Origin: Bdellovibrio sp. ZAP7
GTDB taxonomy: Bacteria > Bdellovibrionota > UBA1018 > CAIMNF01
DNA: 64,000 bases
Assembly (NCBI GenBank): GCA_945874535.1
Contig: CAMCGZ010000011.1
Coordinates: forward strand, 1-64,000
Direction: 5' to 3'
A program made the translations under genes and the position numbers. A model generated the notes under the pieces. It saw nothing but the letters and a program-made list of their open reading frames with translations, searched no databases and had not been told where the DNA came from. Below are positions 62,514-62,840 of this stretch, one piece after another; the first letter of the stretch is position 1, and each line of letters opens with the position of its first letter.

Positions 62514-62701
62514 GGTTTCACGGACGGAATCGGTTAGAAAGGCATGAATCAGGTAAGGGTTCGGCCAAGCGCTCGGGCTCACGTCACGTTCGCCCTCCGC
62601 CTGGCCACCTCGTAAACCTCTGACTCGCCTCACGCTCGTCAGCAGGCCGTATGGCCTGACGGTTTACTCGCTTCTCACCCTTTCGAGTCCACCGTGAAAA
62701 C
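62514..62701. other. Highly structured non-coding segment, candidate ncRNA or DNA element
   Basis: No coding signal. An outer stem TTTCACGG/CCGTGAAA (62516-62523 and 62692-62699) encloses two modules. Hairpin A: GGCCA.GCG...GGGC (62563-62578) pairs with GCCC..CGC.TGGCC (62592-62606). Module B is a three-way junction: GTAAACC (62612-62618) with GGTTTAC (62661-62667), inside which CTGAC/GTCAG (62620-62624, 62638-62642) and CAGGCC-GTAT-GGCCTG (62643-62658) sit side by side. The strand is unknown. This segment and the adjacent hairpin fill the 290-bp gap between the deacetylase and tRNA genes. Confidence 0.55.
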
Positions 62702-62753
62702 GTACAAACAGAAAAGGCCACTTTCTATCGAAAGCAGCCTTTTCTGTTTGTAC
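62702..62753 (-). terminator. 17-bp perfect hairpin downstream of tRNA-Arg
   Basis: GTACAAACAGAAAAGGC (62702-62718) and GCCTTTTCTGTTTGTAC (62737-62753) form a perfect 17-bp stem with an inner CTTTC/GAAAG pair. It lies 10 bp past the tRNA 3' end; on the minus strand a short GTTTTC follows, so terminator or processing function is likely. Confidence 0.65.
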
Positions 62754-62762
62754 AAAATTTAA

Positions 62763-62840
62763 TGGCGGACCCGAAAGGGTTCGAACCTATGACCTCTTGA
62801 TCCGTAGTCAAGTGCTCTAATCCAACTGAGCTACGGGTCC
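62763..62840 (-). tRNA. tRNA-Arg (anticodon ACG), CCA encoded
   Basis: This is a 78-nt cloverleaf on the minus strand. Acceptor GGACCCG pairs with CGGGTCC; anticodon arm CTTGA-CTACGGA-TCAAG has anticodon ACG (read as ICG, decoding CGU/CGC/CGA); T-loop TTCGAAC; discriminator G and encoded CCA at the 3' end. One T-T mismatch in the T stem. Its promoter is upstream and a long hairpin lies downstream. Confidence 0.95.

Follow-up and report, generated by a model that had tools for sequence, protein, structure and literature searches.

Among described systems, the one closest to the element analysed here is RtT (Rfam RF00391), known from the 178-bp repeats of E. coli tyrTV/rttR and mostly regarded as a curiosity of the E. 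coli tyrT operon. The T-loops of tRNA genes are, in addition, integrase sites, with one integrase normally serving one tRNA. The RtT units of E. coli tyrTV are built from an inverted GGGGAAGGAT, then GAGAAGC, a core and a direct AATCCTTCCCCCACCACCA. We found RtT in 50 of 274 sampled gammaproteobacterial genomes; 26 of 30 RtT loci were located behind tRNA-Tyr, -Ser, -Gln or tmRNA, and most had arms that track the tRNA. In E. coli, RtT is freed from the transcript of the tRNA, and RtT-family RNAs have been seen by Northern blot in Actinobacillus (PMC4986893). The same paper (PMC4986893) cites a stringent-response proposal for RtT, and another connects rtT-like sequences with BIMEs (PMC2965389).

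A 64,000-nucleotide stretch of DNA from Bdellovibrio sp. ZAP7 (contig CAMCGZ010000011.1; the window) contains a member of a family of small folded elements, widespread and not catalogued before, whose copies lie directly behind tRNA genes. The copy sits between a deacetylase gene and tRNA-Arg(ACG), both on the minus strand. The original prediction had described nested and branched pairing at 62514-62701, and all of the arms it named are present (TTTCACGG/CCGTGAAA, GGCCA/TGGCC with GGGC/GCCC, GTAAACC/GGTTTAC, CTGAC/GTCAG and CAGGCC/GGCCTG); it was likewise right that no ORF fits, with none listed of at least 60 aa covering the element. The complete unit reaches past these coordinates, as far as the tRNA T-loop. 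As in RtT, the tRNA gene lies on the same strand and 5' of the element, and the 5' arm of the element (62677-62693) is complementary to the tRNA 3' end. The parts of the unit are as follows, where R1 is a covariance model built from nine cores and R2 a broader model.

62763..62840, minus strand: host gene tRNA-Arg(ACG) (ARAGORN; Rfam RF00005, 64.5 bits)
62763-62782, minus strand: last 20 nt of tRNA-Arg(ACG), GAACCCTTTCGGGTCCGCCA, the source sequence for the element arms
62702..62753, minus strand: terminator-like hairpin in the gap between tRNA and element, with 24-nt arms that are 92% complementary (terminator-like scan)
62677..62693, minus strand: inverted copy of the tRNA-Arg 3' end, forming the 5' arm (minus-strand GGTGGACTCGAAAGGGT; inverted repeat I2); the arms in relatives fit their own tRNA
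62561..62676, minus strand: structured core, as matched by R1 and R2; its last two bases, GA, are part of the direct tRNA copy
62612..62667, minus strand: three-way junction, closed by P2 (GTAAACC/GGTTTAC; covarying helix 1)
62643..62658, minus strand: hairpin P3 (CAGGCC/GGCCTG; helix 2)
62620..62642, minus strand: hairpin P4 (CTGAC/GTCAG) with a GA/GA internal loop and a GTGAG pentaloop (helices 3 and 4)
62563..62606, minus strand: long hairpin P5 (GGCCAGGCG/CGCTTGGCC) with upper stem GGGC/GCCC (helices 5 and 6)
62555..62562, minus strand: remnant of the direct copy of the tRNA-Arg 3' end (minus-strand GAACCCTT; direct repeat D2, 8-nt match)
62514..62523, minus strand: outer stem arm TTTCACGG, in the window copy only and absent in relatives
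62692..62699, minus strand: outer stem arm CCGTGAAA, in the window copy only and absent in relatives

Elsewhere in the window, a 6S RNA gene is located at 2057-2233 on the plus strand (RF00013, 66 bits).

The minus strand folds at -86.3 kcal/mol (z = -5.2) and, in the comparison with shuffled sequence that had been proposed as a check, beats 200 of 200 shuffles with none equal, against -71.5 kcal/mol for the plus strand (z = -2.9, with 2 of 200 shuffles equal). The better fold therefore marks the minus strand as the relevant one, and this is also the strand of tRNA-Arg(ACG). The plus-strand RNA read in the original prediction has the weaker fold and the wrong orientation relative to the tRNA, and we have abandoned it. 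The three-way junction and the long hairpin are conserved in relatives. The outer 8-bp stem formed by TTTCACGG and CCGTGAAA is not, as relatives lack it and the inverted and direct copies of the tRNA 3' end pair there instead.

Across 113 distinct copies, compensatory changes occur in 33 of 35 base pairs, 89.4% of cells are paired, and the covariation score is 0.626, against 0.156 for shuffled and at most 0.084 for slid partners (0 of 500 shuffles), in an alignment that was fitted to the covariance model and is thus biased toward the structure. A MAFFT alignment of 9 close copies, not fitted to the model, agrees, with compensatory changes in 15 of 35 pairs (0 of 500 shuffles). The junction-closing helix P2 is paired in 90% of cells and shows double changes in 7/7 pairs; for P3 the values are 97% and 6/6. 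Across the family, P4 and P5 are mostly capped by pentaloops that fit N[GT]GAN. At paired positions G-U is seen 132 times against 52 for A-C, but 69 against 53 once two wobble positions are removed, an excess so weak that G-U counts alone leave RNA versus single-stranded DNA undecided. The structural part of the structured-RNA option raised originally thus holds, since the fold is conserved with strong covariation.

The search route proposed at the outset, BLASTN followed by a covariance model across the genome and its relatives, recovered homologues with compensatory changes. By BLASTN there are two further copies in the genome of the window, behind tRNA-Cys and tRNA-Val, and 13 of the 13 loci found at E <= 0.01 in this genome and its relatives lie directly behind a same-strand tRNA. 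R2 places a fourth copy of this genome behind tRNA-Leu(TAG) (G000:C8:88761-88887, locus L146). More widely, R1 matches 18 of 58 genomes of the class and R2 matches 43 of 369 genomes of the phylum Bdellovibrionota, and the confirmed loci include MAGs of Bdellovibrionales, Bdellovibrionaceae and Oligoflexia. Outside the phylum, matches to a degenerate DNA pattern in Actinobacteria, Chloroflexi, Pseudomonas and others were rejected as chance, since R1 confirmed none of them. Five loci (L062, L063, L064, L075 and L123) match only the three-way junction, and weakly, with no tRNA nearby; several lie shortly after the apparent ends of protein genes, and these matches may be due to chance or to a shared terminator-like fold.

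Directly 3' of a tRNA or tmRNA gene and on the same strand lie 98 of 114 distinct copies, at a median distance of 81.5 nt, and the hosts comprise 34 tRNA types and tmRNA (the latter also by Rfam). The remaining 16 have no tRNA in reach; at least three are near contig ends and one has an Rfam-only tRNA, and contig ends explain only some of them. Read from the tRNA, the shared arrangement runs through a spacer or terminator hairpin, an inverted copy of the T-arm end and the core to a direct copy of the tRNA 3' end, which begins at T-loop position 57/58. The core, of about 110 nt, is thus positioned at a junction in the T-loop of the tRNA or tmRNA gene, and the tRNA remains whole. An inverted arm of at least 8 nt is present in 83 of 98 copies and a direct copy of at least 15 nt in 61 of 98; many relatives have the complete 20-nt direct copy, of which the window copy has 8 nt only. 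Both flanks follow their own tRNA (inverted, 9.7 versus 5.0 nt; direct, 14.5 versus 4.8 nt; 0 of 5000 permutations equal in either case), and because R1 and R2 contain neither flank beyond a few bases, this match is largely independent evidence. With the inverted and direct arms on either side of the core, pairing between the flanks can form a closing stem of host-tRNA origin. Copies are single or tandem, and several tRNAs carry tandem units, one of them an exact repeat of a 145-bp unit (L072). The element is thus a real, conserved, phylum-wide structured element bound to tRNA genes, and the linkage that the original prediction had offered as one of its options extends across the phylum.

Other repeats and insertions also occur behind tRNA genes. 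Long palindromes with recurring loops occur as hairpins behind tRNAs at L133, L146, L069, L005, L006, L009 and L107 (for example CATCTCGCTC...GTACG.CGTAC...CGCTCGATTT and GCCATCCTGGCC...TGCAGTG), and look like a second repeat family. In one relative (G001), insertions behind tRNA-Pro, -Met, -Ser, -Ala and -Arg (L177, L184, L186, L170 and L181) have complete or partial direct tRNA copies and hairpins but cores of other types, an indication that at least two core families share the tRNA-arm anatomy.

The original prediction recognised no RNA family at this locus. This stands with respect to Rfam, where only tRNA scores above threshold and sub-threshold microRNA-type, Thr_leader and plastid 5' UTR hits are chance matches, but the anatomy is of a known kind, that of the E. 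coli RtT repeats. The ends of the copies are tRNA-derived, vary from copy to copy and track the host tRNA, with no fixed terminal inverted repeats common to all, as would be seen in a MITE or REP element; on these grounds an integron attC site and an IS-type MITE were rejected. A CsrB-like sponge was also considered. Many loops in the family are AGGAT or GGGAN, but those of the window copy are GTGAN. GGA therefore does not define the family, and this identification was dropped.

The element is likely mobile. Cores behind different tRNAs within one genome (G042) are up to 99% identical, and in G011 the cores behind Ser-GCT and Arg-ACG are 93% identical while their arms differ, each tracking its own tRNA. 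Within a genus the orthologous tRNA may carry no copy, as at Val-TAC in G009 and Cys in G001. The most fitting interpretation is that the element spreads and that its arms are acquired from each target or adjusted to it. The main alternative is that long-resident copies have been homogenised, which could give a similar picture. No agent of movement emerged from the candidates tried: no phage, plasmid or viral contig matched the element, which dismisses a phage or plasmid vector, and neither reverse transcriptase (RVT_1) nor Y1 transposase (Y1_Tnp) genes are associated with copies across the genomes compared.

Over 135 bp, the window copy and that of G011 have 96% identity in the core, against 67-81% in the flanking stretches, and the tRNA-Arg(ACG) site holds the element or its remnants in several relatives. 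We read the window copy as an older resident of this site, in which the direct copy has decayed to GAACCCTT and the core has been conserved. Behind tRNA-Asp, G001 has only an arm remnant (L171) where G008 has the whole element (L008), a decayed or deleted copy.

Taking these observations together, we consider it probable that the window segment is an RtT-like, tRNA-linked, mobile structured element that acts as a folded single strand, most likely of RNA, on the strand of the tRNA. Spread between tRNA genes would proceed by a trans-acting or host process, with the flanking arms taken from, or adapted to, each target tRNA. The insertion would be tolerated because the tRNA retains a complete 3' half, and often a terminator too. 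By analogy with E. coli RtT, transcription may run into the element from the tRNA, or through its terminator, with tRNA processing then freeing the product.

One way of making the inverted arm, snap-back copying in which synthesis turns at the terminator hairpin, was set aside because the G041 and G042 copies combine a short spacer with an inverted arm of 8-10 nt.

Two other accounts must be weighed, both of which we regard as improbable. The first takes the direct repeats as attL and attR of tyrosine-recombinase islands at the T-loop, with the core either a leftover attP or a cis-mobilisable mini-island moved in trans. The direct repeat of the tRNA 3' end, the break in the T-loop, the restored tRNA and the tandem accretion all fit, as does the established status of T-loops as integrase sites, and to this extent the attachment-type option in the original prediction was well founded: a T-loop junction with a duplicated tRNA 3' end does resemble an att insertion. 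Against it, no integrase gene lies between the repeats, which are about 200 bp apart with no ORF of at least 60 aa. The range of 34 tRNA types and tmRNA is also at odds with the one tRNA that an integrase normally serves, and the inverted arm and the covarying, RNA-like core are left unexplained. We judge att remnants to be unlikely.

In the second account, to which we give a similarly low probability, the element is a regulatory or processing RNA of the host that evolved behind tRNAs, is inherited vertically and has had its cores homogenised by gene conversion. An Arg-ACG copy or remnant common to several relatives, core conservation exceeding that of the flanks, and the release of RtT from the tRNA transcript in E. 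coli (PMC4986893) are all compatible with a non-mobile element. Empty orthologous sites in the same genus, tandem units and the patchy occurrence in 43 of 369 genomes are difficult to reconcile with it. Retrotransposition, in which a reverse transcriptase copies an element RNA whose 3' end is a tRNA half with CCA, and the copy is inserted at tRNA genes, would suit the tRNA-like 3' end, the T-loop boundary and the RVT_1 genes of G000 (the genome of the window), G001 and G011, but is very improbable given that genomes with many copies (G012, G017, G041, G042, G055 and G056, of which G041 and G042 are incomplete) have no RVT_1 match and that some inverted arms extend beyond CCA into the trailer, so that mature tRNA cannot be the sole template.

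On the preferred reading of an RtT-like mobile element, the RtT anatomy extends to a second phylum, where it has a different core and flanks that track the host tRNA and is associated with 34 tRNA types as well as tmRNA. What had been an isolated repeat would then exemplify a strategy by which tRNA genes in general can be parasitised or regulated. More tentatively, and with the balance of probability against it, the element and RtT may together represent a broad class of protein-free mobile elements living on the T-arm common to all tRNAs, in which a folded core is able to enter nearly all tRNA and tmRNA genes at the T-loop and rebuilds its arms from each target by an undescribed copying mechanism. 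Two questions can now be put to the test, namely by what route a core free of protein genes arrives at so many tRNAs with ends that match them, and whether tRNA metabolism is a target of the putative released RNA; the covariance model can also serve to annotate the family.

Compared with known systems, the element resembles REP/BIME sequences in being small, repeated and hairpin-rich, but differs in that its flanks are host tRNA sequence, its site is tRNA-specific and the genome of the window is without Y1 transposase. With tRNA genomic islands and CIMEs, which use the att sites of tyrosine recombinases, it shares the direct repeat of the tRNA 3' end, the break in the T-loop and tandem accretion. 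Unlike them, it is about 200 bp long, lacks an integrase gene, has an extra inverted arm and has no single target tRNA. The closest likeness is to RtT: in both groups the unit lies behind a tRNA or tmRNA gene and on its strand, has as its 5' arm an inverted tRNA 3' end, followed by TTCGAA or TGAGAA, carries on its 3' side the direct tRNA 3' end from T-loop to CCA, and can occur in tandem. The core differs in both structure and sequence, and the models do not cross-match: RF00391, which does match E. coli, has no match at its gathering cut-off of 45 bits in the window or in G000, G001 and G011, while R1 has none on E. coli tyrTV and R2 none in the 274 gammaproteobacterial genomes, RtT carriers included. 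The element thus works like RtT and on the same plan, but, with cores not recognised between the groups, is not filed as RF00391. Whereas sampled RtT lies behind Tyr, Ser, Gln and tmRNA, the Bdellovibrionota element lies behind 34 tRNA types, and is an RtT-kind variant with a much wider host-tRNA range.
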